From Arctopsyche grandis (lineage: Eukaryota; Arthropoda; Insecta; Trichoptera; Hydropsychidae): a stretch of 64,000 nt of DNA. Positions 26,488 through 48,840 of the stretch are shown in pieces (the stretch's first letter is position 1; each line of letters opens with the position of its first letter). Location of the stretch: positions 28,830,001 through 28,894,000 of the forward strand of contig NC_135365.1 in NCBI RefSeq assembly GCF_051622035.1, given 5' to 3'. Under the pieces are notes generated by a model that searched no databases, was not told the DNA's origin, and saw only the letters and a list, made by a program, of their open reading frames with translations. The position numbers were made by a program, and so were the translations under genes.

Positions 26488-26750
26488 CGTTTCCTATCAA
26501 CGTATCGATCGTTTCCTATCAGAGTTGGCCAATTTTCTCTGATTTCATTGTTGAAACGGTATCTGGTAAAATTGGCTTAATATCTTTCCTACCTACTATG
26601 TCACCACTATTTGAGATTGATCAATATACAATAAAATTTATGTACATTCATTTTTCAGTGTCTCGTAATTCAGCGACTAGTAAAAATGCTGCAATGTTTG
26701 TAATTGGCCAGGAAGGCGCATTGGGCTTACCTGTAAGGCCTTCCTGGTAT
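26488..26750 (+). mobile_element. Headless SINE with intact tail A hairpin
   Basis: Starts in the body (GATCGTTTCCTATCAGAGTT) and ends with the best-preserved tail A: arms CCAGGAAGGC (26708-26717) and GCCTTCCTGG (26738-26747) around the loop GCATTGGGCTTACCTGTAAG. Confidence 0.72.
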
Positions 26751-26759
26751 ATATGTAAA

Positions 26760-26791
26760 AAATACTGAGCGAAGCCGGCTAAAACAACTAG
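26760..26791 (+). mobile_element. Helitron-like 3' end
   Basis: ACTGAGCGAAGCCGGCTAAA then ACAACTAG/T: a GC-rich hairpin around GCGAAGC followed by the CTAG terminus. The same end appears at 42543-42574, 58554-58582 and 58740-58771, and inverted at 61657-61687. Confidence 0.45.
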
Positions 26792-26813
26792 TATTACATA
26801 TATATTACATATT

Positions 26814-27315
26814 AGCCAGCAGTTTGGCTTAATGGTAGCGTATATATTTAGCACCACTGAGGTCGAAGGTTCGAGTCCTCGTCAAACTGCTGGATAGGTT
26901 TGGCGGTTTTGTGACTCCAAATCGATCGTTTCTCTATCAGAGTTTGCCAATTTTATCTGATCATTGTTGAAACGGTTCCTGAAAATTGGTATTAGATCAT
27001 TTCCCGTTTGTCACAAAATCTGTGTGTATAATTTGTAGAAATTATGCACAGTAATCTGAAATCTATAGATATCTCTATAGACATCTCTATAATTTCGTGT
27101 TTATTATATGTATAAAATTGTAATAATAATTGTACACAAAAATCTAAAAATAATCCATAGATGTCTCTACGATTATTATTTCTGTACTGATTAATTGTTA
27201 TATGCTATGTATTCTGATTGTATATGTATTATTGTATTTCTGACCGTTATCGTACACTCGTCGCATTGGAGCGATCTGTAATGACGAGTGTATATTGATT
27301 GTAACAATAAAATAT
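26814..27315 (+). mobile_element. SINE, head I + tail B
   Basis: Gly-like tRNA head (GCCAGCAGTTTGGCTTAATG, B-box GGTTCGAGTCC), common body at 26921-26980, then tail B: perfect 10-bp hairpin TACACTCGTC (27253-27262) / GACGAGTGTA (27283-27292) with loop GCATTGGAGCGATCTGTAAT, followed by AACAATAAAATA. Confidence 0.85.
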
Positions 27316-27489
27316 GATACATTAAAGTGGGGAGTGGCCATAACAATATGAAGATTGTCCAACGTTAGTTTGAAAGACACTTTTCGTTACAGATTTCATA
27401 ACTGAAGCGTACTCACATCAAAATAGGAAGTATGTATGTAGATAGATTAGAGTGGATTCAATTACGTTGAATTGGCAGTAGCAGCGTGT

Positions 27490-27533
27490 TATCAATTTAT
27501 CACAAACCGGGCGACGCCGGGCACACGCGCTAG
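27490..27533 (+). mobile_element. Helitron-like 3' end (CTAG)
   Basis: ACCGGGCGACGCCGGGCACA then CGCGCTAG/T. A CCGG(G)CG/CGCCGG hairpin precedes a CTAG terminus. The left boundary is not visible. Confidence 0.35.
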
Positions 27534-27539
27534 TAACAA

Positions 27540-28196
27540 TAATAAGATTTCCGAATATTGCCCGCAACAATAGAGTGTGGGAGCGCGGGTGCGTTAACCC
27601 CTTAAAATAAAACTCACAATGAATTTCTTCTGTAAATAAAAGTGTTTAACATTTCGGGTTGACTGCACCACGAAAACGTGTCCCGATCATCACACCGCTT
27701 CCATCATCATCATCATTATCATCATCTCGACAGATCTCCGAACCAATTTTTAAATTGCGCAATCGCGGATTCGCGAACGTTCGTCATACATCATACATAC
27801 GTACGAAAGTTCAAGTCACGTTTATCGCTCGTCGGATAATCCGCAGTGTCAACATTGGAGATGAAAAGCGTTCAAATTTAACACACATTTACACTTAACA
27901 CGTTCTCCGGTAGCGCTTGGCGCGTTAAAACGTCCCGCATTCGGTCTGTTGACATTGCAGATTTCGAACGATTTTTTTTGGTCGAATTTTGGGTATCTAA
28001 ATATACCCAAATGCGAATTTTAGTGGTGGTATTATTAGTTTATGCAAATTTTAGTGTAGAGACGACTCTTCAGCTTGTATAATGGCTGATGGAATCATAA
28101 TTTGCCGTGAAATATACACTACGCTTTCATATATAACACGGTTGCTATTTAAAATTTTTGGCGGGAAAATGTTTCATTCTTTGATTTAGTGCATCT
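27540..28196. other. Intergenic; no gene seen
   Basis: CpG-containing sequence with a CATCAT microsatellite near 27702-27725. No recognised open frame. Confidence 0.4.
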
Positions 28197-28199
28197 TTA

Positions 28200-28711
28200 G
28201 GGCCAGGCCGCACCGTGCAACTTTGTCGGCCGACTAGTTGCGCGACACGAAAAAATTTATGGAAATGTGTGCGACAAACATGTTGACGGGTGTGGCATGT
28301 CCCATCTCGGTCTCTGTGACGAGACAGAATGTTAAATTACAGAAAACGCAAATATCGGAAGGCAAAGATCGAAAATCGAAAGATCTTCAGTCGAAAGATA
28401 AAACAAAATGGTGGATGGTAAACTGTACATACTCACTTAATTTGCGCGAGCAGGATACAACAGGAACAAGGGAAAAGCATGTTCTTCTTGTTCCTGTTGT
28501 ATCCTGCTCGCGCAAATTAAGTGAGTATGTATGTACGTGAGTATGTAACGCTTACTATGCACCATTTTTTTCGATCTTTGCCTTCCGATATTTGTATTTT
28601 CTGTAATTTAACATTCTGTCTCGTCACGTAGACCCGTCCCATCTACTTGCATGTATTGGTATGGTCGCCCTCAACCAAGTCGCTCGCAAGTCGCACGGTG
28701 CGGCCCGGCCC
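28200..28711. mobile_element. PIF/Harbinger-like MITE, family 1, with an insertion
   Basis: Terminal inverted repeats GGGCCAGGCCGCACC (28200-28214) and GGTGCGGCCCGGCCC (28697-28711), flanked by TTA on both sides (28197-28199, 28712-28714). A 3-bp TWA duplication is typical of PIF/Harbinger. The uninterrupted copy is at 30031-30205. This one is split by the foldback element at 28308-28636. Confidence 0.8.
28308..28636. mobile_element. Long foldback element nested in the MITE
   Basis: A 329-bp insertion flanked by an exact 8-bp duplication, TCCCATCT (28300-28307 and 28637-28644); the intact relative at 30031 shows a single TCCCATCT. The arms are long and imperfectly inverted: GTGACGAGACAGAATG to CATTCTGTCTCGTCAC outside, ACTTAATTTGCGCGAGCAGG to its complement inside. 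The 8-bp duplication suggests hAT, P or Merlin type. Confidence 0.8.
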
Positions 28712-28827
28712 TTAGGCATACATATGTGGATCAATGTGCAAAAATAATATTGTCAAAAATCATTGTAAAGCTTAGAAGAGTTAATAATTTATTTATTTTT
28801 CGCACTTTAGATAGTTGCGCTCGTTAA

Positions 28828-29340
28828 CCCTTTGAATGCTGACCAACGCCGATCGGCGTTTTGCCGACGGGCCTGAAAAACGCCGATGGGCACTGTATTT
28901 TGAGCATGTACAAAGTAAACAAGAATACTTCACGCTAAGCCTTTCCAGGTAGCATTGAAAAAAAAATGCATTGAACATGGGTCGTGTCCGTTTGGTTTAC
29001 AGCGGACTTTCTGAATTAATAGCCCATAGCAGAATTTCCCGATGGAAATCCCTAACTGCTGAGTATTTCAACAACAATGAAGGAAATGGAACTAGTTTTT
29101 GAAAAATACATTCATTAATATACTTATTTGTTTATTTTATATTGTTGCAAGATATATTAGAGAGTCTAAACACACCTTTACAAAACTGGAAATCCTCGGT
29201 AGTTATCTAGGGTTTGTTTGGATTAGCTACAAGTTTCATAACTGCTTTTTATTGGTTTTTTTAATTATTCTAATTGGAAATGTTGGCGAAACTTTCAGTT
29301 TGGCGGGCTTTCAACAGAAAAGACGTCAGCACTCAAAGGG
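28828..29340 (-). mobile_element. piggyBac-type MITE
   Basis: 513 bp flanked by TTAA (28824-28827, 29341-29344). Ends CCCTTTGAATGCTGAC and GTCAGCACTCAAAGGG form a 16-bp inverted repeat with one mismatch. The orientation is opposite to the copies at 4041 and 31046. An ACGCCGATCGGCGTT palindrome lies inside the left end. Confidence 0.82.
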
Positions 29341-29344
29341 TTAA

Positions 29345-30027
29345 AGGAACAAACCAACTAAAATAGACGCGTCTAATGGCATAGGAAAACTCGTGTGAAG
29401 TCACCGTAGGTAGTCGACCGGGCTTGTTCCTTGACCGAGTCAGTCACAGTGCACGTGTATATGCAAATATTTATTTTATATATAATATCATATCATGTTA
29501 TCATCATGTCATATTATCATATAATATCACATTATCATAATAAAGGAACCCAGCAAATATTTTTTACAAGATTTTTATTAGCTTCACTCAGTTAGTCCAG
29601 TGATATTCCTGCCCGTCAAAAACTTGTGATCTGATTTTGAACCAGTTGCATTTTTCAGGTCGCTTTGATATCTTGCCAACATACGAGGGTAGGCTAACAT
29701 AAAAGTAAGCTAATGTCTCCGACATTAGTTTTATTGAAATTCTAATATCATTAACGAACTCATTAAAATTTACATCGGAATCGAAGCGATTACAGCTAGC
29801 TATCCAAACGCGCCTTTCTACCGCCCCTTTGCAACTAACAGGCAAATAATTTTTTTCACTCTCATTTATTTTACTGTACTCACCTGCTTAAAATTTTCGT
29901 TGAGCTTTGACGTATGTATGTATGTATGTATCAAATATAAATATTATATTATAACGTCAGCCATAGTGATACGACGGTTTTTTTATTATTTTGAAGTGAC
30001 AGGTCCCAGTGCCATGACAGGTCACCC
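29345..30027. other. Intergenic; no gene recognised
   Basis: A minus-strand frame at 29588-29845 is open for 85 codons but resembles nothing I know. An AT-rich TATCATATT repeat lies at 29478-29540 and a (GTAT)n run near 29911-29930. Confidence 0.35.
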
Positions 30028-30030
30028 TAA

Positions 30031-30205
30031 GGGCCGGGCCGCACCATGCAACTTTGTCGACAGACTTGTTGCGCGACACGAAAAAGTGTATGGAAATGTG
30101 TGCGACAAACAAGTTGACGAGTGCGGCATGTCCCATCTACCTGCATGCATTGGTCTGGTCGCCCTCAACCAAGTTGTTCGCGAGTTGAGCGGTGCGGCCC
30201 GGCCC
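30031..30205. mobile_element. PIF/Harbinger-like MITE, family 1, intact
   Basis: 175 bp. Ends GGGCCGGGCCGCACC and GGTGCGGCCCGGCCC are perfect 15-bp inverted repeats, flanked by TAA (30028-30030, 30206-30208). The interior matches both halves of the 28200-28711 copy. Confidence 0.85.
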
Positions 30206-30208
30206 TAA

Positions 30209-30516
30209 GAGCGTAGACACACAGAGTGGCACGTGGCAAATTTTATTTAGATAGTTTTGCACATGTAAAAATCGCTAGCACTACTAATCTATGCCAAGCC
30301 AAAACTCTCCCCCTGAAGTGTTTTCGGAGAAATATTTTCCTTGTATTGACATAAGTTTGGCAGTGATCGATAATAACCATTTTCAAATTTGAAGAAATGT
30401 AGAAGAAATTTTCGAAATAATAAGATCATACGAATTAACAATGACATAAGACACGCCCTTTTACAGTTGGAGTCTATCTAAGCATTCCGTGCAGTACAAT
30501 TATGTGTGTCTGCAAC
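30209..30516. mobile_element. MITE-like element abutting the family 1 MITE
   Basis: Begins GAGCGTAGACACACA directly after the TAA of its neighbour and ends TGTGTGTCTGCAAC before TTAA, giving roughly inverted ends. It shares GTGGCACGTGGC, TTTTTAGATAGTTTT-like and CAGTGATCGATAA blocks with family 2 (31736, 62795). A further fragment with CGCAGACACACAGAGAGGCACG lies at 30724-30800. Confidence 0.45.
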
Positions 30517-31045
30517 TTAAATCAATACTATTGACGGCTAACTGTGTACATTAATTTTTATGTATATATTTAAACACATTATACAATAGAAATACAAACC
30601 GCAAGCTTATTGTATTGCTTGCAACAATCAAAAAATTTGCACCAACCAAATTTGCGAGAAAGGATGTCGATTTTATAGCGATTGTCACAACAATTAAGTT
30701 AGATGAATCTGCAAACTTTAACGGCGCAGACACACAGAGAGGCACGCAGCATGTGATTTTTTTAAGATAGTTTTGCTCATGTAAAAAAACGCTAGCACGG
30801 TGATTCCTATATGTGAAGAAATGTCGGATAAACTTGTCAAAAAAAAGAACCAATGCAGACAAACCTTCTTTACGTTTTTAAAACTGGAGTCCAAGAACGT
30901 GCCCTTGCCGTTAGATTCGGTGTGCTTTCGCCCTAACAGGAGACGGTCGATCTGGATTTAAATAACCAAACAATCAAAGATGATTGTCGTACAAAAAATG
31001 GTTCACTATTGTCAACCATGTTTTTTTGCTCTCTTGCTTTGTTAA

Positions 31046-31617
31046 CCCTTTGATTGTTGACGTTTTTTCTGCAGAAATCCCGTCACGCTGAAAATTTCGC
31101 CATCATTTCCAACTAGAATTATTTAGAAATCCATTAGAAAGGAGGTATACAAATTTTAGCTAATCCAAACAAACCCTAGATAACTACCACCGAGGATTTC
31201 AAGTTTTGTAAATGTGTATTTAGACTCTCTAATATATCTTGCAACACTATAAAATAAACAAAACAAGTCTATTAATGAATGTATTTTTCCAAGATTAGTT
31301 CCATCTTCTTCATTGTTGTTAAAATGTAATGCTCACAATTTAAATGCCAAGCCACAATCTAAAATACTCAGCAGATTTTTTAAATCTGCTATGGTTATAA
31401 ATTCAGAAATTCCGTTGTAAACCAGTCTTTATAAACATTGACACGGATTACACTACCAATGTTCAATGCATTTTTTTTTCAATGCTAGCTGGAAAGGCTT
31501 AGCGGGTAGTATTTTTGTTTACTTTGTACATGCTCAATATACAACGCCTATCGGCGTTATTCAGACCCATGGACTTGTTGGCAAAACGCCGATTGATGTT
31601 GGTCAGCATTCAAAGGG
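31046..31617 (+). mobile_element. piggyBac-type MITE
   Basis: 572 bp flanked by TTAA (31042-31045, 31618-31621). Ends CCCTTTGATTGTTGAC and GTCAGCATTCAAAGGG. Collinear with the copy in Mi-2 intron 1. Confidence 0.82.
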
Positions 31618-31735
31618 TTAACTAAAGGAGGGATTTATTGCTATTTGAAAAGCACCAAGCCAACGCCCAAGTCTTCTCGTAATCATCGAGAAAATCGAAT
31701 GAAACCTTCGAACCCACGACCTCTCGACTATTCAA

Positions 31736-32759
31736 GGGCGAAATCACACAGCGGCGAATGTGGCACGTGGCTGTTTTTAGATAGTTTTAAACATATAGAA
31801 AAAATGTGACATTCATGGCACGCATGCATGGCACACGTCCTTTCAATACGACACATTCGACCTATGTCGTTGAAATTGTATGGTAGTATTTATCCTTGCT
31901 TGACAGTGATCTATGTATACCAAAACGACCCTTTGGACCATTTTCGGTAAAATTGTGTATCCTTGCTTGACAGTGATCGATAACGGTGTATCCCATATTC
32001 GTTATCGATCACTGTCAAGCAACGATACAATTTTACCGAAAATGGTTAAGGGTTGTTTTGGTATACATATATCATTATCAGGCAAGGATAAATACTACTA
32101 TACAATTTCAACGACATAGGTTGAAAGTGTTGTGTTGAAAGGACGTGTGCCATGCATGCGTCAATGTTTAAAAATATATAAAAATCATATTAACAATTAG
32201 ATACAACATAACTTCTTATTGAATACTTATCTCGCAGATAAAACTCCGTGAAGAGATATACATTTAGCCGTGAAATGTTAGATTTGACCATAAATCTATA
32301 TATATCGTGTATTACATTACATGAAGCTAGATGCCAAATTTGAAATTTATATATACATATGAGAGTTTTAAATATTAGAGATAACGAGAACCTATAGAGC
32401 AAATTTTATAAAATATAGAGTGAATTATAGGCGTTTAAACAATTAAAATCTAAAATGGCCATATCAAGGCGAAAAGGTTGAAGGTTGATTATGGTAGCTT
32501 GCCGTACCGTCATAGATGTCACCGTACCCGAGATTCTGGATATTTGATACGCATTGTATACGATATTTTATCTCCAACGTAATGGCAGACGATACATTAA
32601 CGTATATTGATGACCAAAATGAGCAATATGGCAAAGTATGAAAACGATCGGATAAGAGATAAAAATGACCACTAACACGAAAGCCATGTGAAACGTAAAG
32701 GAGGTAAGTAATAAGTAAAAAAACCCACGTACCACATTCACCTCTGCGTGGTTTCGTCC
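31736..32759. mobile_element. Harbinger-like MITE, family 2, 1-kb copy with large palindrome
   Basis: Left end GGGCGAAATCACACAGCGGC and right end complementing to GGACGAAACCACGCAGAGG form inverted repeats of about 40 bp with mismatches. The right flank is TAA and the left CAA, so the 3-bp duplication is imperfect. Inside, 31821-32160 is a long imperfect palindrome centred near 31992 (GATCGATAACG ... CGTTATCGATC). The 259-bp copy at 62795-63053 carries only one arm. Confidence 0.65.
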
Positions 32760-32939
32760 TAAGAATCGCTTGACCAATGAGCTACGCTGCTATCGATTGG
32801 TAGTGAACCGTAGCACCATCGCGGGCCCACAAGGCTCGCGCGAATGCTACTTTTTCCTTGAAAAATCGCAATAGCCGACTACTATAGTCGTAATTTGTAT
32901 ATTGGGGCGTATTTAAGCCGCTACATTGGACTTTTTGGA

Positions 32940-33500
32940 AGTGAGCAGTGTCGAGGAGTGACGTAGGGCAACCACTGCGCCACCGAGTCTCGGGACAGCC
33001 TCTCATCCACAACAATTACCGGAGTGTGTGCGTCGCGTCGGTTCGTTCACCTCTTCGGTACAACTTTTTTCTCGGTAATGTCATAATTACAGGCCGTTCG
33101 CCGGAAACGGATGCTCTGCCCGGGTCTGGAGCTGGTGCTTGGTCTGGTGGTGGAGCACGTTTTCCAGCCGGTTCGACCGCAACGCGCACTGTGTGTATTA
33201 TACTACACTATATACTATGCGGTATGAGTGTCCACGGTGTCTACGTATGTAATGTACTTTTGTATATACAAACACACCCCGACGCCATTCACTCGCTCCG
33301 ACACCGGGCAAAAAGAATCCCTCGCTCGGTTTACGCAGATTCGCACGCTCGGATCATATCGGACGTGTTTGTTTGTCATTATCGCGTGTTTGTTTTTGTT
33401 TGCGAACGTGAGGCGGCCTTAATTCGCGGCTTCTCTGCACTTCTCCTGGTAGGTGGAGATCGTGTGACTTCGGCCGTCATCGGCTACTGTATGATTCTAG
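32940..33500 (+). other. GC/CpG-rich block, possible promoter or 5' exon; unassigned
   Basis: GC-rich sequence with a long plus-strand open frame (32948-33643), a possible acceptor (ATTACAG at 33086-33092) and a possible donor (CCTG/GTAGGT near 33449). The predicted peptides show no family resemblance and composition alone can keep the frame open. I do not call a gene. Confidence 0.25.
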
Positions 33501-33508
33501 TTCTGACT

Positions 33509-35480
33509 GTTGGCCGTTTCTTTAACTGTCGAATTTGGACGTTAGAGTTCATAGTGCATTGGTCAGAGGAATTAATGTGCGTTTTCCCGCCGACTTTTGA
33601 CGTCCTCGACTACCGTATGATTTACATTCTGACTACTTATTAGCTGTTTTTCTGTCATCGCGTCGGGTAAATTCAGAAGTTGGCGAAAATATGTTTCTTC
33701 ATATTGCTTTGGTGTATGAAATTAATCTGTACTTTCCCGATGACTTTGGTCATCTTCGACTACCGTATGATTTGAATTCTGACTTCTTATTAACTGTTTT
33801 TCTAACTGTCATCGCGTCGCGTAAATTTGAAAGTTGGGGATAACAGGTTTCTTTATATTGGTTTGGTATATGAAATTAATGAGTGCTTTCCCGGTGACTT
33901 TGGACAACTTCGACTTCCATATGGTTTACAATCTGTTTGTATGTTGGTCGTTTCTTTAACTGTCGAATTTGGACGTTAGAGTTCATAGTGCATTGGTCAG
34001 AGGAATTAATGTGCGTTTTCCCGGCGACTTTTGACGTCCTTGACTACCGTATGATTTACATTCTGACTACTTATTAGCTGTTTTTCTGTCGTCGCGTCGG
34101 GTAAATTCAGAAGTTGGCGAAAATATTGTTGCGTAGGGGTGGGTGGAGGATCCAAGTAAAAGGCCAACAGTCGTTTCACAGCATTTATTGATGATTCAGG
34201 AGATACACGCAGTGTCACGGCTAAGTCCAGAATGAATTATATCGCCTACGTACCGCCTTATAAAGGGTAGATCTCTCAGGACGCCTAATCTGTTTACCTG
34301 TTGTATAGTCACGTATTCGGATATGTATTTCCAAGAAATTGGGTCTTCCCATACCGATTCTGAGAAATAACTAATAAAGGTCATTGTTTAGCCTAAATGC
34401 ACTTAGAGTCCAGATATAATCTTTGGAAGTAAGTGCATGCATTTAGTTAACCGATAACAGATATCCGTTGGTCTAAGTACAATTCGCTCAATCCACGGCG
34501 TACGTAACAATATGTTTCTTCATATTGCTTTGGGGTATGAAATTAATGTGTGCTTTCCCGATGACTGGTCATCTTCGACTACCGTATGATTTGAATTATG
34601 ACTTCTTATTAACTGTTTTTCTGACTGTCATCGCGTCGGGTAAATTTGAAAGTTGGCGATAACATATTTCTTTATATTGGTTTGGTATATGAAATTAATG
34701 AGTGCTTTCCCGGTGACTTTGGACAACTTCGACTTCCATATGGTTTACAATCTGTTTGTATGTTGGTCGTTTTTTTATAACTGTCATCACATCGGGTAAA
34801 TTTAAAAGTTGGCCATCATATGTTTCTTTTCAAATAGCGTTCGTCTCTGAAATAAACATGTGTTTTTCCGGGGACTTTTGACGTCTTCAACTACCGTATG
34901 ATCTACATTCTGATTGTTTGTTAGTTGTTTTTCTTACTGCCATCGCGTCGGATAAATTTAAAAGTTGGCAATCACATGTTTCTTTATATTGGTTTGGTCA
35001 ATGAAATTAATGTGTACTTTCCCGGCGACTTTGGATATCTTCGACTACCGTATGATTTACATTTTGACTTTTTATTAGCTGTTTTTCTAACTGCCATCGC
35101 GTCGGGTTAATTTGAAAGTTGGCGATAAAACGATTCTTCATATTGCTTTGGTATATGAAATTAATGTGTGTTTTCTCTGCGACTTCAGACATCTTCGACA
35201 ACCGTATGATTTACATTCCGACTGCTTATAAGCTGTTTTTCTAATTGTCATCGCGTCCGGTAAATTTGGAATTTGGCGATCACATGTTTCTACATTGCTT
35301 TAGTCTATTAAATACATATATGTGCTTTCCGGCAACTTTGGACGCCTTCAACTACCATTTGATTTACATTTTGACTGCCTATTATTAACAGTCTTTTTAC
35401 ATATTTTTACGTCTATTTGCATGTATCTACATAGAGTCTTGTTCTATGAAATGATTTTTCCGGTGACTTGAGGCATCTCG
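33509..35480 (+). repeat. Tandem satellite, about 152-bp unit, with 433-bp higher-order duplication
   Basis: The anchor GAAATTAAT ... CTTTCCCG recurs near 33574, 33719, 33871, 34004, 34539, 34691, 34851, 35003, 35158 and 35305, mostly 152-155 bp apart once an inserted LTR is removed. Each unit contains CTACCGTATGATTTACATT, a TTATTAGCTGTTTTTCT block and CATCGCGTCGGGTAAATT. A block from GTTGG at 33509 is repeated from 33943 and again from 34762 (433-bp step). Degenerate units continue to about 35790. Confidence 0.85.
34127..34509. mobile_element. Solo LTR inserted in the satellite
   Basis: 383 bp beginning TGTTGCGTAG and ending TACGTAACA, with inverted TGTTGCGTA/TACGTAACA termini. It is flanked by ATAT at 34123-34126 and 34510-34513. 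The sister satellite copy at 33689-33700 reads straight through with one ATAT, so the empty site is visible in the same window. No internal retrotransposon sequence remains. Confidence 0.88.
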
Positions 35481-35799
35481 GTTATCATACGATTCAATTA
35501 CGTATTTCCATTTTGAATTCCTATAAAATTTGGACTTTTTGTATGTATAGCTTCTTTTCTGATAGTTTAGGGCGTTTTCGATTACCATGTGGTTTCCATT
35601 TGGACTCTACCATCTGCTTGTTTAAATGTCGTCCTGTTGGCCAAATTAGGATCGCTTCGGTTTGCATCTTCATGGTGGTCTATTAAACGAATTAAATGTG
35701 AACATTTCTCCATTGGTTTCAGGCACCTTCGGTCACCGTATGATCTGTTCAATTATCATTGCGTTGGCTAAATTTGGAAATCAGAGTTTGTAGTTCCAC

Positions 35800-36590
35800 A
35801 GTGTATCATGTAATATTTGGCTTGTCATCGTGAAGACAGGTTGTCAATTCTCAGTCTCAATTCTCAGGTTGACATTCATTTCAGTCATTATGAAACTTTT
35901 TGGTAAATATTTCTTCAGTTCACCGTCTCGAAACAGCCATTAATTTTACATTTGTAAAAAATATAAATGTGAAATTCAAACTTGGTAATTATAATTAATA
36001 ATATGTACATGTACAAATAGTTGTATGCTATTTTTTGGAATTATTTTTCATTTGGGCAGCTTTAAACATTGTGAATGTGGGCCATTATAGGTTAAGTATC
36101 AAATTTTATGAAATAATTAAAAAAAAAAAATTAAATCGACTATAGTGTTTGAGTGTGTGTGCTTATAATGAGGTCCATAACCTTTTGGAAAAATGAAAAA
36201 AAAATGTAACGCTTTGGTCATCGTGACCATAAAACAGGAGGAGGAAATCAATAAAATAAATATCTGACTTTATCTTCTTACCCGTGTTTCACGTCATGAA
36301 AAATTAAATAATAAAAATCAAGCATCATCTTACGCTAATTACGCTCGACTTGACAAAACGATCGACTCCGTGTTTCCCAAATTTGTTTTCATTCAAATTG
36401 AAATAAAATTTGATTCCAATTGGCTGAAGTGAAATATTTTCACGCGCCGCTGAAACTTACGGAACGAAATTTCATTGTCCAATTAGCGAAAGCGTTGATT
36501 AGGCTAATCTTGAAAGCATTTGACTACAAGTCTTCGATTTAGAAATAAAGTAAGATAATTTAGAAATAATATAAGAAAGTAGAATCGATA
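35800..36590. other. Intergenic; no gene seen
   Basis: AT-rich single-copy-looking sequence without a recognised frame or element ends. Confidence 0.4.
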
Positions 36591-36607
36591 ATGAAGATAC
36601 TATAATC

Positions 36608-36840
36608 AGAATATAGTTGGAATTGGAATTGGAATCATAGTTGTAATTGGAATCGTAGCCGTAATCGGAATCGTAGTCGCAATCAGAATCTTAGTCGGAT
36701 TCGGAGTGGTAGTCAGAATCAGAATCGTAATCGGAATCGAGTTGGAATCTCAGTTTGGGTTGGAATCAGAGATGGAAACTGAATTAGAATTTTAGTCTGA
36801 ATTGGAATCGGATTAAAAAAAAACAATTGGAATTTCAATC
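36608..36840. repeat. Degenerate GGAATC/GTAATC hexamer array
   Basis: About 35 diverged hexamers of the type TTGGAA, TCGTAG, TCGGAA run without interruption. A shorter relative is in Mi-2 intron 8 (7320-7425). Confidence 0.7.
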
Positions 36841-37517: not shown

Positions 37518-38050
37518 AGCCAGCAGTTTAGCTTAGTGGTAGCGTATATATTTAGCACCACTGAGGTCAAAGGTTCGAGTCCTCGCCATCTGCTGGTTAA
37601 ATTTGGGGGTTTTGTGACTCCAGATCGATCGTTTCTCTATCAGAGTTTGCCAATTTTATCTGATCATTGCTGAAACGGTTCCTGAAAATTGGTATTAGAT
37701 CTAATCCTGTTGTCACAAAATCTGCCTGCGTATAATTTGTAATAATTATACACAGTAATCTGAAATCTATAGATATCTCTATAATTTCGTATTTATTATA
37801 TGTATGTGCAAAAAAATTGTAAAATTGTAAAAAAAAAAATCTAAGAATAATCCATAGATGTCTCTATGATTATTATTTCTGATTAATTGTTATATGCTAT
37901 ATATTCTGATTGTTTATGTATTACTGTATTTCTGATTTGTGATTGTTTATGTATTCTGTATTTCGTTAACGTACACCCGTCGCATTGGAGCAAATCTGTA
38001 ATGACGAGTGTATATTAATTTGTAACAATAAAAATAAAAATAAAATAAAA
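37518..38050 (+). mobile_element. SINE, head I + tail B
   Basis: Head GCCAGCAGTTTAGCTTAGTG with B-box GGTTCGAGTCC, common body at 37623-37690, tail B hairpin at 37972-38012 (one mismatch) and an AAAATAAAATAAAA end. Collinear with 26814-27315. Confidence 0.85.
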
Positions 38051-38454: not shown

Positions 38455-38657
38455 TGATTTTGATTTTTAAATGCTTTTTATTATTACTAAATTGTATTCA
38501 CAATATACATTTGATATATATTTTAATAGCTGCTGATATCTACTGATCATTTTCTATTTTACAATTTTAATTTAATTTTGTTAGTAATCATAGTATTATA
38601 TTATTCTAATGTTAATGTACAGCATAATAGGAAAAAGAGCTCAAAAACCTATTTATA
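38455..38657 (+). repeat. 195-bp AT-rich repeat, copy 1
   Basis: Starts TGATTTTTAAATGCTTTTTA, passes CTACTGATCATTTTCTATTT and ends AAAAAGAGCTCAAAAACCTA. Further copies: 42226-42420, 50773-50955 (inverted), 51061-51250. Confidence 0.8.
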
Positions 38658-39022
38658 ATTAAATAGTTGAATTGTATAGTATAGCTGTCGTTCCGACAGA
38701 AAAATGAGGAATACCTACCTATAGTAGTACTGAATCATTCACATTATCATTACTTGGGTGTAGCCGGACGCACAAAAGCAAGTACGAAATGAATTAAAAC
38801 GTTAGTAAGTGCATTCAGTGCACACGTACAATACGTACGTATGTAGATATTTTCGGTGCATTTACATGAAAATGCACTTGGACGTGCATACGCGGTCTCT
38901 CATGCTAGTCCTTTTTACACGTTATTCGTTATGTTCCCGACTCGCCATATATGTAAGTCTAGCTTGGGTGGGTAGGTCTCAAAGTGGTCATAAGTGTTGG
39001 ATTAATGACCTTAACCTCTGCA

Positions 39023-39023
<1 letters not shown>

Positions 39024-39099
<76 letters not shown>
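39024..39099 (+). repeat. (CA)38 microsatellite
   Basis: Uninterrupted CA dinucleotide run of 76 bp. Open frames of repeated His-Thr or Cys-Val across it are artefacts. Confidence 0.97.
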
Positions 39100-39104
<5 letters not shown>

Positions 39105-39320
39105 ATAAACACCAACACAGGTTTATTTCTCTCGCTAACACCAGGTTCAAATTTAGCTCGTTACTCTTTTGTCGCAGTATTGGCAATATCGTATATCAAA
39201 TTTTGACTTTTATCAGAACATGGAAGATTCATTAGTAGTTGGCCGACCAGTGTGTAGTGGTTGGCCTTTGAATTTAAATTTAAAAATTCGCATTTGTGGC
39301 CCCATATTAACATACATACA

Positions 39321-39708
39321 TACCAGGAAGGCCTAACAGGTAAACCCCAATGTGCCTGCCTGGCCAAGTTATTTTAAAAAATCATCTATGGATAATTTTT
39401 TGGAGCATTTGACGATTTGAATATACATAGAATATACAAATCGTCAAATTTCGAAAAGATAAAAAACTCGAAATTCGAGAGACATTTGTGGACAAATTTT
39501 TAGCATTTTAATACGAATCAGAAAAATTCGAAATGAGTAAAGGTTGTCAATTTGTTTCAATGAAAATCAGATAAATTGGCAAACTCTGGTAGCAAACGAT
39601 CGACCTGGAGTCACAAACTAAGGTCTGGCCAGCAGTAATCAGTGGGACTTGAACCCGTGACCACACTGACCATATCAAGATATCCTAACCACTTGTCTAT
39701 GCTGCTGG
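39321..39708 (-). mobile_element. SINE, head II + tail A
   Basis: Tail hairpin at 39323-39364, common body near 39560-39605, head II near 39630-39708 with GGTTCAAGTCC B-box and CCAGCAGCATAGAC end on the minus strand. Confidence 0.78.
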
Positions 39709-39751
39709 TTATGTATGGGAGTTCTACGGTTTAAAGCTTCGCACAATTCTT

Positions 39752-40073
39752 CGCTTCGGTCGTTTCTTATCAGAGTTTTCCAATTTTTCTCATTTTCATT
39801 GAAACGATTCCCATTTATCTCGCGAAATCTTGAGTTATTGTGTTATATCTCAGAATTCGCCGGTTTTCCCCCCATAGATGTCTCTGTGGATGTTTATTGT
39901 ATACAATTCGTATTGTTGTATAAAAATGTCTATTGATCGTATTGTATATGATGTTTATTGAACTTTTTTATACAATATTTGCAATGTCTGACCATAGTCA
40001 TATCAAACACTCGTCGCATTGAAGCGATCTGTAATGACGACTGTACATTGATTGGTTGAATAAAAAAAAATAA
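39752..40073 (+). mobile_element. SINE body with tail B (5'-truncated)
   Basis: Body starts TCGTTTCTTATCAGAGTTTT. Tail B hairpin ACACTCGTC/GACGACTGT at 40007-40044 with loop GCATTGAAGCGATCTGTAAT, ending in A-rich AATAAAAAAAAATAAA. Confidence 0.72.
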
Positions 40074-40195
40074 AAAACTCGATTAACGCTGTGTAAAACT
40101 ACAGTTTTCAATAAAGATATGATAAATTTTGGCATGATATCTTATAGAACCCTAAATTAGACTTTATTTTATTTATTTTTTATTTTTTATTTAAT

Positions 40196-40945
40196 TTACA
40201 CCAAGAAGGCCTAACAGGTAAACCCAATGCGCCTTCCTGGCCAAAGACAATTATATAAACATATACATATGTACACCATCCATATATACACAAATACTTA
40301 CACGTATACACAAATACACATACATACATACATAAATATAAAAATACACATATATACATATACATACATACACACCTACACATATATATATATATATTCA
40401 CATATACATACATATACATATACATATACATATACACATACACATACATTACATACATCCATAAACATACAAACATTATACATGCATATACACATAAATA
40501 AAGATAAATTACTCATATATGTATATAAAAATAAAAAATAGCATACATATATAAATAAAGATATAACCAACATACATACACATTATGCTAAATAATAAAA
40601 TTACAAAATGAAAACCACATGTGTAAATATGTATGTAGCTAGAAGTCATTTAAAATATGCTGCCTGACAACTGTATGATGAAGTAAAAACATCAAGGCTC
40701 CCAGAAAGCAGGTTAAATAGTCGAATGGCTCTTGAAAGGGGTGAGTCATCAAGCACATTAGTTCTGGCCCGAATAGGCAGGAATAGAGTTCTGGAGCGAG
40801 ATTCTCCCAGTTTCTCAGGTAACCTAAGTTTAAGATTACACAGAACTTCAGGAAGATGACATTCACCCCTTAGAATTTTTAGAAAAAGTTTACTAATATG
40901 ATTGTTTCTACGTGAAGCTAAGGAGTCAAAGCCCAAGGAGCCCAT
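40196..40945 (-). pseudogene. LINE ORF2 C-terminus and 3' UTR ending in tail A
   Basis: The minus-strand frame from 40945 to 40646 reads MGSLGFDSLASRRNNHISKL ... LPEVLCNLKLRLPEKL ... SRTLFLPIRARTNVLDDSPL followed by SRAIRLFN. This pattern (LESRR ... FxKIL ... LNLRVP ... RTNxxxxSPLSRxxRLYN) is the classic C-terminal end of CR1/jockey-like LINEs. It runs on through an AT/TATG-rich 3' UTR (40250-40630) to a tail A hairpin at 40203-40243 and an AAATAAAAAATAAAA end. It is 5'-truncated. Because the tail is the one on many SINEs here, this is a candidate partner LINE family. Confidence 0.68.
40255..40600. repeat. Impure (TA/CA)-rich CATA microsatellite
   Basis: CATA, TATACA and ACATAC units over about 340 bp, inside the 3' UTR of the LINE remnant. 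Confidence 0.7.
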
Positions 40946-40949
40946 GACA

Positions 40950-41765
40950 AACTCACTGGGAAATAAGTAGGGATAACGCCCTATGCTTTAAAACATCTGG
41001 GTACATTTTTTTCAATTTTCGCCCACGCAAGCAATGCGGCCATTTTGAATGCAGGTTAAAAACAATCTTTTGATTGGGTCATAGGCAGAAAATGGTACAA
41101 AATTTTGGATGAAATAAATTACCAAGATTCGTCCACGGTCGGGAAAGGGTTTAACAAGCGTATTCGTGTAATGCAAACGTTGGTGTAGCGGGGGTGTTGT
41201 TCGAGTGTGTTTGTTGTGCGCACAACACGAATTAATCCCGGTATTTACAAGGATGTTAACACGCCGTGAGCAAAATACTCGTTTCATACGCACCGATCGA
41301 ATTGTCCAAAGAGCTACCTACGACCAAAGGCGCCCTCTGCGACCAAAACGAATATACATAATAGACAAATAGTCTAGTGTAAGGTGTGTTGTGCAACGTG
41401 TAAATATAGTAGATACGTATGCATTCGAGGCGAGGCAACACCCACGCTCGCTGATTCACACACACGTGTCACACGAAACTCGTAAACTACGATTTAGATG
41501 CGTTGCAAAGCGTGCGTGCAAGATGGCGGACGTGTGAGGTTATGTGTGCAGTGTGACGTTTCGACACGCATCGCAGCGCCTCCTAGCGGTTTTGAATGTG
41601 AACCGCTCGATTCTTAGTAGCTAAATCGATTTGGAGAAATATGCTTGTGCATAATAGCGCCACCAGCTTTTCATGGGATCTGATTATTATGGCAAAGGTC
41701 CCTTATTATGTTTTCTATTTTCTTTTTGAAAAATGGTATTATAAAGAAATAAATATTTACATCAT
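40950..41765. other. Intergenic; no gene recognised
   Basis: Two minus-strand frames of 69-93 codons show no family resemblance. At 41518-41531 there is GCAAGATGGCGGAC, resembling a YY1/Pho-type AAGATGGC motif within a CpG-containing block. Confidence 0.35.
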
Positions 41766-41766
41766 C

Positions 41767-42574
41767 ATATAGTATATAATTTCGAAAGAGACTTTGCATA
41801 CATGTAACCTTCGTTGGTTGGTTCGTAGACAACACATTTATTTACGTTATCTATGTACGTAGTAACAATATGCGAAAATTCGAACTCGAGATTTTTATTG
41901 ATTCCAACTCTGAATCGATTACTGATCACGTTTTCATGAACTAGTTTTTTTCCGATTCATATGCGCCGATTCGATTTTTTTCGATTCAAATGATTTGAAG
42001 TCCCCGGGGGCGCCTGGGGCGAAGGCTCCGGGGGCAACGGCGCCTAGGGCGAAGGCGCCCTCGCGCTGTGGGGGCGGGGGTAAGGCGCTGGATTCTGGTA
42101 TACATATAATTTCGAAAAAGACTTAGTATATAATATGTTTGTTTGTTCGTGACAGTTAATTTAATAATAAAAAAATGAGTATTCAAATAAATTTATATAA
42201 AATAAAACTATTCACATAAATTTAATTTGATTTTGATTTTTAAATGCTTTTTATTATTACGAAATTATGTTCACAATACATCTTATATCTATTTTAATAG
42301 CAACTGATCTACTGATCATTTTCTATTTTACAATATAATTTTATTTGGTTAGTAATCACAGTATTATATTATTCTAATGTTAATCTAAAGCATTATAGGT
42401 AAAAGAGCTCAAAAACCTAATCCTTATAAATGTTCATAATACATCTAATACATAATATTAATTAAAGACTCTCTAAAGTCGATGACCTAAAGCAAATACA
42501 TAAATTTAATAAAATGTTTAGGCACTATTAGATTATAGATAGAAATACCGAGTGAAGCCGGGTAAAACCACTAG
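41767..42574 (+). mobile_element. Helitron-like elements (5' motifs and CTAG end)
   Basis: ATAATTTCGAAAGAGACTTT (near 41777 and again at 42107) is the 5' motif of the family seen at 58355 and 58586. The 3' end ACCGAGTGAAGCCGGGTAAA then ACCACTAG finishes at 42574. A GC-rich inverted block (42001-42088) lies between. A copy of the 195-bp AT repeat is embedded (42226-42420). Confidence 0.5.
42226..42420 (+). repeat. 195-bp AT-rich repeat, copy 2
   Basis: Collinear with 38455-38657, with small indels. Confidence 0.78.
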
Positions 42575-42576
42575 TA

Positions 42577-42925
42577 CTTAAAAACTACCGACCCATTAGA
42601 CTACTTTCAGCGGTTTACAAGCTCTTCACAACGATTATTTTACAGAAAGGCTGAAGAATATCCTCGACGAAAACTAATCTATAGAACAGGCAGGGCTTAG
42701 GGAAAATTTCAGCACAATGGAATTCAAAGGATTCAAAATTAACGTAGATGATACCAAACTAATTTGCAATAGTTATTGCATTTCATTAGATGATAAACCA
42801 GTAGCAGTTGTAAATAATTATTTATATTTACATTGGTCAAATGATTGATATGTCTGGTAGTAATGAAGTAGAAATAAAGAGACATATGAAATTAGGATGG
42901 AGATGGAGTATGGAGGTTTTAGTTA
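42577..42925 (+). pseudogene. Internally deleted RTE-like reverse transcriptase relic
   Basis: Segments in shifting frames spell KNYRPIRLLSAVYKLFTTII (RT motif with NYRPI), a QAGLRENFSTMEF-like segment, FKINVDDTKLICNS, VVNNYLYL and EIKRHMKLGWR. Their order matches the fingers, then the later palm and post-RT part of RTE-type endonuclease-RT proteins, with the catalytic centre deleted. It begins directly at a Helitron-like CTAG end. Non-functional. Confidence 0.66.
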
Positions 42926-42929
42926 CTGA

Positions 42930-45200
42930 CGTAATTAAAAACTGAATATTGAAATGATGAAATATTAACTATGATATTAATGTAATATCGTTTTGAAAAA
43001 TTTCAAAACGATATTGAATCTGAGCTACATAGATACGAAAAAAATATTTAAGAATCTTTTCAATGCACATTATGTATATCGAAAGCTCAGCGCATTACAT
43101 TAGAATAAAGAATCTTCCAAGAAAACAATTTCTTCTTTGTATAATAAATATTATAATATAATAATGTACCTGTAGAAGAATTTTTGAAAGATTTCAAGAA
43201 AGTCTAAGCAAAAAAGGTTTTTACAAAAAAAAAAACACATTGTAAGCTATGGTTTTTGTGTCCGATTTTTGATATTATACGCGCTATTATTATGTTAACT
43301 TTGCATCGTTGGGTATAAATTACCGAAACCCTTGTTTTTTAACGCGGAAGAGATTTTTTTGTGACCACCTGCCCTTTTTCGTATTTCTTTCAACCCTTTC
43401 GCACCCGAACCATTTATTTCTTATTATTTGTGGAAGGTCAGGTAGACTTAGACATTCTTAAGATGAAAAAAAAATTGTTAAATCATTATTTATCTTAATT
43501 AGTTTATTACTGTCGGAGCAAAGAATATCATCAAAGTAATAGCTAATTTGTATGAAAGCACTATTTTAGTAAGTGTTACACTAAAAGGTGGTTTAAGTTT
43601 GTGTTACACTAAAGTGTTTTAATTTTGAACTATCATATGATTTAAATTATTTATTAATACATAACAAATACGGCGAATTTCTAAAATATTTTATTGAAAT
43701 CAAAATTTTAATTAAAAGTACTCAAATGTACGAGTCTTTTAAATAAAAACGTTCCATTGAAGAAATGAATACATTCCTTGAGTACGTATTTTAAATTTTT
43801 AGTTTGACGCAATATAATATATATTTAACCTTTTCGTACTTTTTAAAAGAAAATGATTTGTTCAATGATAAATAACAAGAAAAATGGTTCTAAATATTGC
43901 AGTTAATTCATTCAATAATGTTAATGGAATATTGAACGTGCAAATTTAAGTATATATATAGATTGTACATTTCAAATATTTTTTAAATGTCATAACATCA
44001 ATAATTCTAAACAAAATATAATCGAATAATAAACTAGAACACTCAAGCAACAAGTTTGTAATTTTTCACTTTTATTATATATTCGTTTCGAGGCAAAAAT
44101 ACAAAAACGCATCGCGGAGTGCATCAGAACGCGTTACCTGCGCTCGCGTTTTTTGGCAATTTTTTTACCCGATTCTCGTAAAAAATAGCGTATAAAAAAT
44201 ATGATAGAGCCTATCTATCCCTTGATGCTTTTTTTCATTTTATTTTACCCAGCAGTGATGTTTACTATTTTATACACGTCTATATATTGTCAAATCTTCG
44301 GGACGTATAAATTTCGTATCTCGTACAAAAGAATCGGACTGCGGTTGTACAATGGAATAAATTTGATATCAGGATCGTATTGTTTACCACCATTGACAAC
44401 AAAAAAACAACCTTAGAATTCACATTGATATACATAAATATAAGTGTGACCGATTCCAAAAGGGCGCATCTCCAATTTTGTACGAAATTACGTATCAGAA
44501 GTCAACTCTTATATTTGTAAATGGATTCACATCGAAATGATACGTTGATGTAATATATTTATATACAGATGCATCTGTCTTTTAGTCCTTTTTTATGTTC
44601 AAACTCATCATCCCTTCCACGTTCGATTTCGATGGTAAAATAAATCGAAAGTTAGATAGCAAAAAAAACGAGTGGGCTTTTTGTGTCGCTTGTTCCCTTT
44701 CGTCTACCAAGACTTGGAAAGAAAGATGATATCGCAGCTATCAAATATGTGTAAGAACGAGGGGTGAGTTTTTTTCGCATTCACGTTCAAGCAAATGTTA
44801 CGAAAAAGAAATATTTATATAAATACATTATATGTTTATTTGCTCTTGATTATAAAAAGGTAATTGATAAATTCTAGTACATTTTAACTACCATTGAATA
44901 ATAAAATTTAGGATTTGTATTAAAAATATATACATGCATTGAGTACTTAATTTTTTTTTTTGCTTTTAGTGTCTCTGTTAGGAATTGTGATTAAAATTTA
45001 AAAAAAGTGTTTTTTTGTAGGATTTATGTATGATATAATGTGTTAGACAGAACAAAAATATAGCTTATTTGTTGAATGTATGCGAAACTTCGGGATTGAA
45101 TCCAATACAGTAAGAGAGGATGTATCATTAAAAATATATTTAATAAGGAGAGACAGAAATCAAAACAAATGGGTGAGGCTATTTATTTATTTATTTTTTA
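42930..45200. other. Intergenic; no gene recognised
   Basis: Strongly AT-rich with scattered short open frames, none recognisable. A hyphenated palindrome AATATCGTTTTGAAA / TTTCAAAACGATATT lies at 42985-43015. Confidence 0.4.
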
Positions 45201-45204
45201 ATTT

Positions 45205-45560
45205 ATACCAGGAAGGCCTAACAGGTAATGATAATGTGCCTTCCTGGCCAGAAACATTGTACATTTGATACAAGTATTATAATACAAAGTAAACACATAT
45301 TAATTAACATTCACAAAGACATCTATGGTCAAATTTGCAGCATTTTATACAATTCATCGAAATTCAAGATGACCGAAAACTCGAGATTTTGCGGGAAAAT
45401 GGGGAATTTGTTGGTACCGTTTCAACGAAAAGCAGATAAATTGGCAAACTCTGATAGGAAACGATCGACCTGGAATCACAGATCCAAGGAAAATGTTTTT
45501 CCAGCAGAAAATAGTGGGATTTGAACCCGTGACTACTTTGTTCCGAAGTGATGGTTATGT
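45205..45560 (-). mobile_element. SINE, head II + tail A
   Basis: Tail A hairpin at 45208-45249 (perfect 10-bp arms), body near 45425-45470, B-box GGTTCAAATCC near 45520 on the minus strand. Confidence 0.76.
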
Positions 45561-46735
45561 CTAGAAAATCAGATATAGCGAGTGAAGAGACTGACATGTA
45601 ATAAAAGATGAAAGATTGATAAGAACGGTACCCAAGAATTTGTCAAATAAAAATGTTATAAAAACAATAGAGGCTTTCATACATCAGTGGATGCTGAAAA
45701 TGATGATGTATGTGATTTGTTTTCACTGGAAAATATTATTTTAATTACAAAAAAATTTAAATGAATATATATCTTATATATGTAGGTATTGCACAAATGT
45801 TAAAGAATTTCGAACCGATAATGCTATATATATAAATATAAAATATTCAAAAAATATTATGATAATTAACAAAGCGACACTGCATCGAATTTCCCCGAAG
45901 GACGACATTTTTTCAATTTCGAATTTCCACGGTCGTAAGAGAAACTCGAATTTGCATATGTTCAATCTCAAGGTAGCACTGCGTCGTTTATGATTATTCA
46001 CGATGTACATTTAATTTTGCGAATTCATATTAATATACATTAAAAAAAATAGTTCTGCATTGTGAATTTCACCGCAACGTTATCTATCACTCATTTACAA
46101 AACGATCTATCTGTCCACATTCTATCTATCTGGGATCAGAGAGCACAAAACAGATCATCCAACATCAGTAATAATATATTTTATTTATAAGACATGGCAA
46201 TGATAATACGTCGTGACGTTTAAAAATAAAAATTCAAATTCAGCTGCATTATTTTTTTTTTTTTTGATTCGGACAATTCTATTGCAAATCAATACATGCA
46301 TTCATAATAGTATTGCAATTATCTTCAAATAAAAAAGCAGCTTTCAGGATGCACTTTTTTGCGGGTGCACCCGCTTTTATTTGCAGCGGATCCTTAAAAA
46401 ATTGTCCTGAGAGGGGACTTTTGGATTCTTCGGACCAATTTGTAGAATACCAGTGGCGCATCGTAGAAATTATTTATTTTTGATATCGCTTCAAAATGAT
46501 TTCGAACATTTCAGTGCTCACAAAAAAAATAACCTCTTATATTATATAAATATGAATGATTGTTTGTTTATGCAAATCTTAGCAATGCAAATTTTAAACT
46601 ATTCTTTGCCACCAACAAATTTGTTATATACATATGTACGTACCTAATATTTCATTTAGACTAGATTTTCTGAAAATATTTTATTTTTCTTGTCTTTTTC
46701 AACTTTCCTTTCCTAATGCCTTTCAATTCGAATAA
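45561..46735. other. Intergenic; no gene recognised
   Basis: AT-rich; no frame or element ends identified. Confidence 0.4.
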
Positions 46736-46838
46736 CTAGCAGAATAGACTAGTGGTTAGCATATAATGCTTTGAGCAAAGTGGTCAAGGGTTCAAATCCC
46801 ACTGATTTCTGCTGGCCAGACCTTGGACTTGTGACTCC
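46736..46838 (+). mobile_element. SINE head II fragment
   Basis: CTAGCAGAATAGACTAGTGG ... TTAGCATATAATGCTTTGAG with B-box GGTTCAAATCC and CTGCTGGCCAGACCTTGGAC. It breaks off before the common body. Confidence 0.7.
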
Positions 46839-46904
46839 ATCTAGACATATATCAATGAAAGTCATAACGATGGAGTTCATTACTGGTTCTGAGTCCACTT
46901 AAAT

Positions 46905-47575
46905 TGGGCTCAAACTAGTCCTTGTCAATATTTTTTATAATGAAATCAAGCAGAATATCAAGTCTGCCCATAATATAGTAATCGATCGACTGTCCTCAAT
47001 TATTGAGCAGACTATCATTGCGTGTGCCAAATAGAATGACTAGATGTAATGAGCTCCTTTACATACCTAATACTTTTTCTAATTATGGAAGAAGCTCATT
47101 CATCTGGCGTGCAAGCTCCACCGTCAACACACTAATTTTAACAATTTCTATGTTTGACTTATTTAATATTAATGCTATACAAGCTAGAGTGATTATTGCA
47201 AATTTGTTTTTCGATGATTAATTTTATTGAAAATTTACGATTGTGATTATGAATTTTTATTTTGATGTATTTATTTTGTCTTTTTGTTTTTTGTTATATA
47301 TTATGTTATTTTTATTATTTCATAATTTTTATCATATTATTATTCTTATTATTTTGATATTTTTATTATACTGTTATTTCTATTTTTTTTCTTTTTGTTT
47401 TCTTTAACTATCTTACTCTATTATCATTTTTGTTTCTTATTTTAAATGTTTGAGCTTTTCTTTTTTTTACCTATATGTGAAAATTATTAATGGTTTACTT
47501 AACATAATTATGTTTTTTTACTATCAATCTATGTAACTTAATAAACTGTAAATTTTCCAAATAAATAAATAAATA
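46905..47575 (+). pseudogene. LINE 3' end with T-rich UTR
   Basis: The frame at 47003-47221 includes SLRVPNRMTRCNELLYIPNT and YGRSSFIWRASSTVNTL, resembling the LRVP ... R ... FxYRxxxxWNxLP end of LINE ORF2. A 330-bp T-rich UTR follows, finishing in (AATA)n. This tail lacks the hairpin found on the 40196-40945 element. Confidence 0.5.
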
Positions 47576-47579
47576 ATAT

Positions 47580-48478
47580 AGTAATGAAAGTCAGTTTCTA
47601 TATAAACTGGACTCAAACCACCATCTGAAAGCTGTAGGTGTGGATCGATCAAAATTAATTAAGAAGCGGATCACTTTTTGGTATAGTCCTTTGAATACTT
47701 TTTTATTGCGTTGCACTGGTCGTAAAACGAGGTAGGTAGTTGAGAAAAAAAAAATTAAAATGATACTCGTAAAAAGAGGACGATGGCACTGAGTGCAACA
47801 ACATCCTGGCACGTGGTTCTCGATTCGACCGTGCAAAAAATAAATATTTGCACGTGCTCCGCGATGCGTAAAAAATGGTGCAGATTGCGCCATTTGCATT
47901 TCCTCGCTTGCACTTCTTTTTACGGCATTCTCGACAATGGTCTTTGTATTGAATTGATTTGGTTTTAGACCGAGAGGGGGGGATGTCCTTTGTATGTAAT
48001 TGCAATGTTTAAATGCGGTTTCGGTTCTTAAAAGACCGATGTCGTGTTTCAAAATAAAAAAAAATTACTTCAACTGAGATGTTTTCAAGCTTTGACTTCG
48101 TGATGGATTCACTTCTTGCTGCGGTTATTCGATAATTCGTTAGTTATTTTACTAACTCCAAGATTATGCTGGTCATTTGGTATTTAGAAAATACTCAGTC
48201 TCACTATGGGATTGAGTTAAAGAACGTTTACATTGAGTATTGAAATGAAACATTTTATTTATTTGTTAATTTATATCATTTTAGATATCTAGCTAATTTA
48301 AAAATACATTCGTAATTAGTTATAAGTCTTTAGTAATATTACTGTAAGTTTTACAGTCCATAACATGACGTTGACAATTACTTTTAAAATCTAAAAAAAA
48401 ATTATTTCCATTAATATAAAATATATGTATGTGTTCCATAAATAAATTTATAATATCAACAACTTACGTCTTTAATAT
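47580..48478. other. Intergenic; no gene recognised
   Basis: A minus-strand frame at 47591-48052 is open for 153 codons but has no recognisable motif and no start context. Rated as chance or an old element. Confidence 0.35.
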
Positions 48479-48840
48479 TTATTTATTTATTTATAGTAGT
48501 TTTGGACCATTGTGGCTTTACAGGAAGGACCGAATGCGCCACAATGGCCTACATTTGATTATGAAAAACAGAAAAATAAAAAATAAAATAAAAATCAAAA
48601 ATGCAAAAGCAGAAAAACATGATAAAATGAAAAAAAAAATTATACATAAGAAAAAAAATGTACAAAAGTGTAAAAATCAAAAATCACATTCTTAGTTTCA
48701 TATTAAATAAAAGAAATATATATGTAGTACATAAAAATGTACATAAGAAGAAATAAAAAGAAAAAGTAACATAAAATAAAACAATATATAAATAAAAATA
48801 AAAACATACTTTTATTAATGTAAATATTTCAAAATACGAA
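48479..48840 (-). mobile_element. LINE-like 3' UTR ending in tail C hairpin
   Basis: On the minus strand a T-rich tract (48840-48560) leads to arms CCATTGTGGC / GCCACAATGG (48538-48547 and 48507-48516, both perfect), a 21-nt loop beginning GCATTCGGTCC and ending CTGTAAA, and an ATAAATAAATAAATAAA end. The layout equals that of the tail A LINE, but with a different stem. Confidence 0.6.

Follow-up and report, generated by a model that had tools for sequence, protein, structure and literature searches.

The window analysed here is a 64,000-nucleotide stretch of the genome of the trichopteran Arctopsyche grandis (RefSeq assembly GCF_051622035.1, contig NC_135365.1, positions 28,830,001 to 28,894,000 of the forward strand), in which short and long interspersed elements (SINEs and LINEs) end in a common type of 3' hairpin. 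The original prediction described three such tails, A, B and C, each pairing perfectly over 10 bp around a common loop, and re-reading the sequence bore out their places, their pairing and the loop they share. A stem scan of the window gave 11, 11 and 14 stem positions for tails A, B and C, respectively, with one mismatch in C. These tails and the element bodies in the window are listed below, the limits of the two SINE copies being approximate and set by eye.

26708..26747, plus strand: tail hairpin A, closing a 5'-truncated SINE; stem CCAGGAAGGC, inner helix TGGG/CCTG
27253..27292, plus strand: tail hairpin B; stem TACACTCGTC, inner helix TGGA/TCTG, tip GCGA
48507..48547, minus strand: tail hairpin C; stem CCATTGTGGC, which is the stem of the C' LINE family, with a different tip; a TAAA-rich end follows
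26495..26760, plus strand: SINE-A copy without a head; central body (CGATCGTTTCCTATCAGAG..), 3' half, hairpin A and A-rich end
26813..27316, plus strand: SINE-B copy; tRNA-like head, shared central body, hairpin B and AATAAAAT end
40649..40987, minus strand: A-LINE relic, a C-terminal remnant of open reading frame 2 (ORF2) with 113 codons open, matched across the whole genome
40200..40241, minus strand: tail hairpin A, the 3' end of the A-LINE relic

By eye, SINE-A and SINE-B both consist of a tRNA-like head and a common central body, followed by tail A or tail B, and the headless SINE-A copy keeps its parts in the order seen in two whole copies (L012 and L023). In the SINE-B head, TGGCTTAATGG and GGTTCGAGTCC are what we take, by eye and against the box consensus, to be A-box-like and B-box-like sequences, respectively; an ARAGORN scan of the window returned no tRNA gene. 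Upstream of tail hairpin C, no LINE frame was recognised on reading by eye. A known RNA family was rejected as the identity of the hairpin, since Rfam covariance models had no match in the window at the gathering level and none in 26500-27400 at E values up to 5. The stems had been predicted to have almost no sequence in common, which holds for B compared with the others but not for A compared with C, as these are alike at 6 of 10 stem positions.

Abundance of the hairpin motif

A search of the genome (475.7 Mb in 189 contigs) for the pattern GCATTGG-N6/7-CTGTAA returned 6,877 matches (3,424 + 3,453), compared with 17 (10 + 7) for the reversed pattern. The motif was also scanned for in a 264-kb sample comprising the window and 20 further stretches of 10 kb each, taken at fixed positions on contigs C1-C10. 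At a strict threshold (score of at least 15), this sample contained 19 hairpins, 17 of them recognisable tails and 2 chance-like and without tail sequence, while the 20 permuted-motif controls gave 0-8 hairpins, with 19 controls at 3 or fewer and one at 8. At a loose threshold no excess was seen (163 matches versus 90-179 for permuted motifs), so weak motif matches carry no meaning. This loose-threshold result, and the many weak hairpins with other loops that the stem scan found in the window, are what would be expected if the tails were chance hairpins or plain palindromes of AT-rich repeats. However, the 6,877 genome matches versus 17, and the 19 strict-threshold hairpins versus 0-8, leave that explanation virtually no probability.

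LINE families carrying the hairpin

Three abundant LINE families, C', A and D, carry different stems around the common loop. Matches to their reverse transcriptases (RTs) are lower bounds, because only the best candidates were scored. The C' LINE had at least 112 scored RT matches at 99-100% identity, with open ORF2 frames of up to 988 aa; the A-LINE had at least 150 scored matches, including several open frames of 979 aa, the maximum; and the D-LINE also had at least 150, with recurrent 972-aa frames and 991 aa as the longest among the matches listed. Stem-specific patterns for A and D had no matches in viral contigs.

Hairpin C' was present in the 3' UTR in 27 of the 32 C' copies examined among the 112 scored matches, while 4 had a swapped tail and 1 (L037) had the hairpin on the opposite strand; these 32 ends are not all independent, with 3' flanks common to L033 and L034 and to L050 and L056, and in L039 and L040 the 3' match is confined to an AT microsatellite. 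The hairpin starts 256 nt past the ORF2 stop in the C' copy L031. In L037, the hairpin end lies on the strand opposite the RT, as after twin priming. Hairpin A closed 6 of 9 further A-LINE copies read; among those in which no tail was read, L069 and L070 break off within microsatellites, and in L064 the sequence passes into a different repeat. All 10 D-LINE copies read had the hairpin (D1 in 5, D2 in 5), with an identical 3' flank in the D2 copies L082, L083 and L085 and a similar one in L084. These four D2 copies also have the same 298-aa open frame. This common frame and their same or similar 3' flanks point to a larger repeat that contains them.

Persistence of the loop similarity in copies of abundant LINE families had been set beforehand as a test, and the similarity persisted. 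The hairpin is also common to SINEs and LINEs, as had been proposed: tail A occurs at the ends of both the A-LINE and SINE-A and is thus a LINE/SINE shared 3'-end sequence. Tail B was met in SINEs only, and no LINE with stem B turned up, although no search was aimed at one.

The ORF2 C-termini of the A, C' and D LINEs and of a further LINE (L006) aligned with one another with scores of 64-152, compared with scores of 21-29 for two frames (in L009 and L019) that we take to be Jockey-like. Most of the C' ORF2 (871 aa) had RVT_1 as its only Pfam match, and its best relatives among solved structures were LINE-1 ORF2 and R2.

Most copies read continue after the hairpin in short tandem repeats of the (AAATA)n or (TAAA)n type, with a long A run following such an end in L072, and AATAAA-like words stand behind many tails, in agreement with the A/T-rich ends noted at the outset. 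Stable 3' hairpins generally protect RNA, and this property together with the AATAAA-like words would suit a hairpin with a role not in recognition by an RT but in forming the 3' end of the RNA, stabilising the RNA or exporting it. We consider such a role unlikely, since the hairpin is common to SINEs with boxes like those of RNA polymerase III genes and to LINEs that are presumably transcribed by RNA polymerase II, whose 3' ends would be formed differently, and since the sharing and exchange of tails track retrotransposition.

Structure and covariation of the hairpin

The loop sequence predicted to be conserved (GCATT-GG and CTGTWA) is kept in the tails, but the 20-nt loop is structured rather than open. 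It comprises a GCAU/UAA internal loop, a 4-bp inner helix (UGGR/YCUG) and a tip of 4-5 nt, and RNAalifold drew the identical structure unaided from 12 tail types.

Covariation was assessed on an alignment of these 12 types, which we picked from this one genome (15 pairs, 180 stem cells) and which omits an A variant with the loop GCATTTGGGG (L002, L021), the L028 copy, the decayed copies in the window and the decayed D tail. Compared with 500 shuffles, the statistics of which ignore the relatedness of the tail types, 96.7% of the 180 cells were paired (74.8 ± 2.1 shuffled), the covariation score was 0.707 (0.246 ± 0.034 shuffled) and two-sided changes were found in 40 cells (11.3 ± 2.8 shuffled), with no shuffle as high on any of these three measures. 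When partners were slid by 1-3 columns, pairing was 36-51%. On a four-row alignment limited to A-LINE, B1, C' and D1 (E, C, C'' and subfamilies dropped), 98.3% of cells were paired and the score was 0.944 (0.340 ± 0.095 shuffled), with none of the 500 shuffles reaching the observed value on any of the five measures. The compensatory change proposed for the window thus shows as strong covariation on both sets of tail types from this genome.

Pairing in the outer stems is complete or almost complete, and stem B differs wholesale from the others. Such a pattern could also arise if one arm had been copied from the other by hairpin-templated synthesis, with no selection for pairing. We regard this origin of the matched stem changes as very unlikely, however, because the C', D and E stems differ by scattered single pairs, GU and UG wobbles included, as in stepwise change, and because the inner helix also contains a pair with a two-sided change (one pair, G-C to A-U).

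Tail exchange between element bodies

In L033 and L034, the 3' UTR of a C' LINE turns into the 3' half of SINE-A 137 nt past the stop and ends in hairpin A. The two were counted as one insertion because they have the same 3' flank. Of the two, only L033 had its 5' flank read as well; its flanks have TCCC in common and join directly in L019, where a Jockey-like copy is uninterrupted, and the chimera was therefore inserted as one unit. The same C'/SINE-A junction is present in L057 and L059 (1-551), where hairpin A is followed by a LINE-like 3' UTR with a second hairpin, C''; these are two more insertions, since their 3' flanks differ. Given the normal copies and these junctions, three hairpins (C', A and C'') have served as ends of C' LINE bodies. 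The tail swap is most simply read as a template switch in the course of target-primed reverse transcription, by either the C' enzyme acting in cis or the A-LINE enzyme acting in trans.

A candidate recognition element

The hairpin stands at the 3' ends of LINEs and SINEs, its stems covary, its loop is conserved across abundant families and one tail swap was inserted as a unit. We consider it highly likely that a group of related stringent-type LINEs, and the tRNA-like SINEs that parasitise them, use it as their 3' recognition element. From its anatomy and from precedent, we infer that ORF2 would bind the hairpin, that copying would start from it and that the sequence of the stem would be tolerated. 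The element RNA would end in a 10-12 bp stem presenting the 5'-GCAU/UAA-3' internal loop and the short UGGR/YCUG helix, with the tip and the A/T-rich repeats behind the hairpin being variable. The LINE ORF2 protein would bind this hairpin, and target-primed reverse transcription would begin just downstream. Recognition would proceed mainly via the internal loop and the inner helix, whereas the outer stem would have to pair but might vary in sequence. Since pairing would count more than the letters of the stem, families could rewrite their stems in matched steps. A stringent-type LINE 3' end recognised by its own RT had been proposed from the window; a hairpin that closes RT-bearing LINEs and tRNA-like SINEs and is followed by A/T-rich repeats is consistent with the first part of this proposal, while "its own" may be too narrow because tails have been exchanged between element bodies.

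Precedents for such a tail exist in several systems. The stringent-type L2-clade LINEs ZfL2-1 and ZfL2-2 of zebrafish and UnaL2 of the eel, the last with its SINEs, likewise have a 3' stem-loop that is essential for movement there, and zebrafish LINEs given a foreign stem are still mobile (at about half the rate for ZfL2-1), while those given a foreign loop hardly are (PMC4176376). Unlike in the zebrafish and eel tails, what is conserved in the tails analysed here is an internal loop and an inner helix, the tip being variable, and several LINE families carry this part on different stems. The tails of L1-clade LINEs of monocots and of maize and sorghum SINEs also share a hairpin with variable, compensated stems and kept loop bases, but in another clade and kingdom and with a conserved UCU loop and CGAG flank in place of the GCAU/UAA internal loop (PMC3747384). 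A 40-bp stem-loop in the V domain of SINEs from molluscs and arthropods is similar in length and likewise occurs in arthropod SINEs, but is described as central in that domain and of unknown function, the hairpin here being 3'-terminal and shared with LINEs (PMC5135761). The stringent-type LINE tail is thus a known kind, of which we did not meet this variant; no description of the hairpin was met in the SINE and LINE literature searched, with most subscription journals outside the search.

Several points weigh against recognition of the hairpin mainly through its internal loop and inner helix. In zebrafish, the loop differs by LINE family and sets specificity, whereas here it is shared among families, and in the eel UnaL2 altered stem sequence cut activity sharply and a bulged stem base was required, so the letters of the stem are not always free (PMC4176376). 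The tip may matter too, since C and C' differ there on the same stem. A single stem mismatch is present in D1, which lacks the drawn inner helix when folded alone, and tail E is a single copy. The relatedness that the shuffles ignore bears on the covariation statistics, and on the 12 types a further two measures, both weaker, were less extreme: 9 of 15 pairs had a two-sided change (6.1 expected; reached in 8 of 500 shuffles), and 26 further pair types were counted (21.5 expected; reached in 20 of 500). Finally, the A-LINE enzyme could have made the tail swap in trans, and a stem-B LINE was not found, without any specific search for one.

Some of the same observations bear on whether each enzyme reads its own tail only, in which case the loops would be alike by descent, the stem would be part of the code, and SINE-A and SINE-B would each be tied to one LINE. 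The presence of tail A on both the A-LINE and SINE-A fits such private recognition, as do the loss of zebrafish LINE activity upon whole stem-loop swaps and the harm done by stem changes in UnaL2 (PMC4176376). We nevertheless find it rather unlikely, because the loop is kept while most stem positions have changed, because hairpin A has ended a C' LINE body, whether the enzyme was that of C' or of the A-LINE, and because a B-LINE was not seen, though again none was specifically searched for. Recognition through a shared core is instead suggested by the occurrence of that core in three abundant LINE families. One form of it, which we put forward only tentatively, is that several LINE families, young at the same time in this one genome, constitute a common pool in which any RT can start on any tail, stems are free to drift, and SINEs and LINEs exchange tails. 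If this were true, hairpin A on a C' body and the composite ends with two hairpins in series (A followed by C'') would be traces of such a shared code. The abundant LINE families and their SINEs form a natural stem-swap series, in which the stem varies and the core is kept; this series offers a direct test of what is read in a LINE tail, and of whether SINE parasites are shared among related LINEs or divided between them.

Further tails and other features of the window

At least 10 more tails of type A or B lie in the window, with decay in some; 8 A-type, including that of the A-LINE relic, and 2 B-type tails are named. The decayed tail D of the original prediction, placed there at 63838-63880, is indeed decayed and D2-like, and lies at 63848-63888 on the minus strand. 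D2 tails elsewhere in the genome are nearly intact.

16757..16800, minus strand: SINE tail hairpin A, longer loop
22360..22400, minus strand: SINE tail hairpin A, decayed
25105..25144, plus strand: SINE tail hairpin A, decayed
37971..38013, plus strand: tail hairpin B2, with a 5-nt tip
39322..39364, minus strand: SINE tail hairpin A, single stem mismatch
40007..40044, plus strand: tail hairpin B, decayed in part
45207..45248, minus strand: SINE tail hairpin A, stem intact, loop changed
57753..57795, minus strand: SINE tail hairpin A, single stem mismatch
62362..62402, plus strand: SINE tail hairpin A, broken 5' arm; a half tail (5' arm only) comes after it at ~62570
63848..63888, minus strand: D2-type tail, decayed (CCATAGCGAC / GTCACCATTG), by comparison by eye with D2 tails elsewhere

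A hairpin at 2311-2371 on the plus strand, the loop of which starts with GCATTCGG, was set aside as a tail, its loop being 27 nt long and lacking CTGTAA.

A 1236-aa open frame at 10465-14175 on the plus strand has SNF2, Helicase_C, CHDII_SANT-like, DUF1087 and CHDCT2 domains and, judged by its sequence, is most of a predicted gene for a CHD subfamily II (Mi-2-type) chromatin remodeller. Ends of the form GCATGC..CCGGG(G)TTCAGCTAG are present at ~2666-2710 (plus strand) and ~49290 (minus strand), and we take these to resemble Helitron-type repeat ends. At 55350-56037, a long short-period repeat has several frames open on both strands, such as MNR/INR and HSV/NSV repeats.

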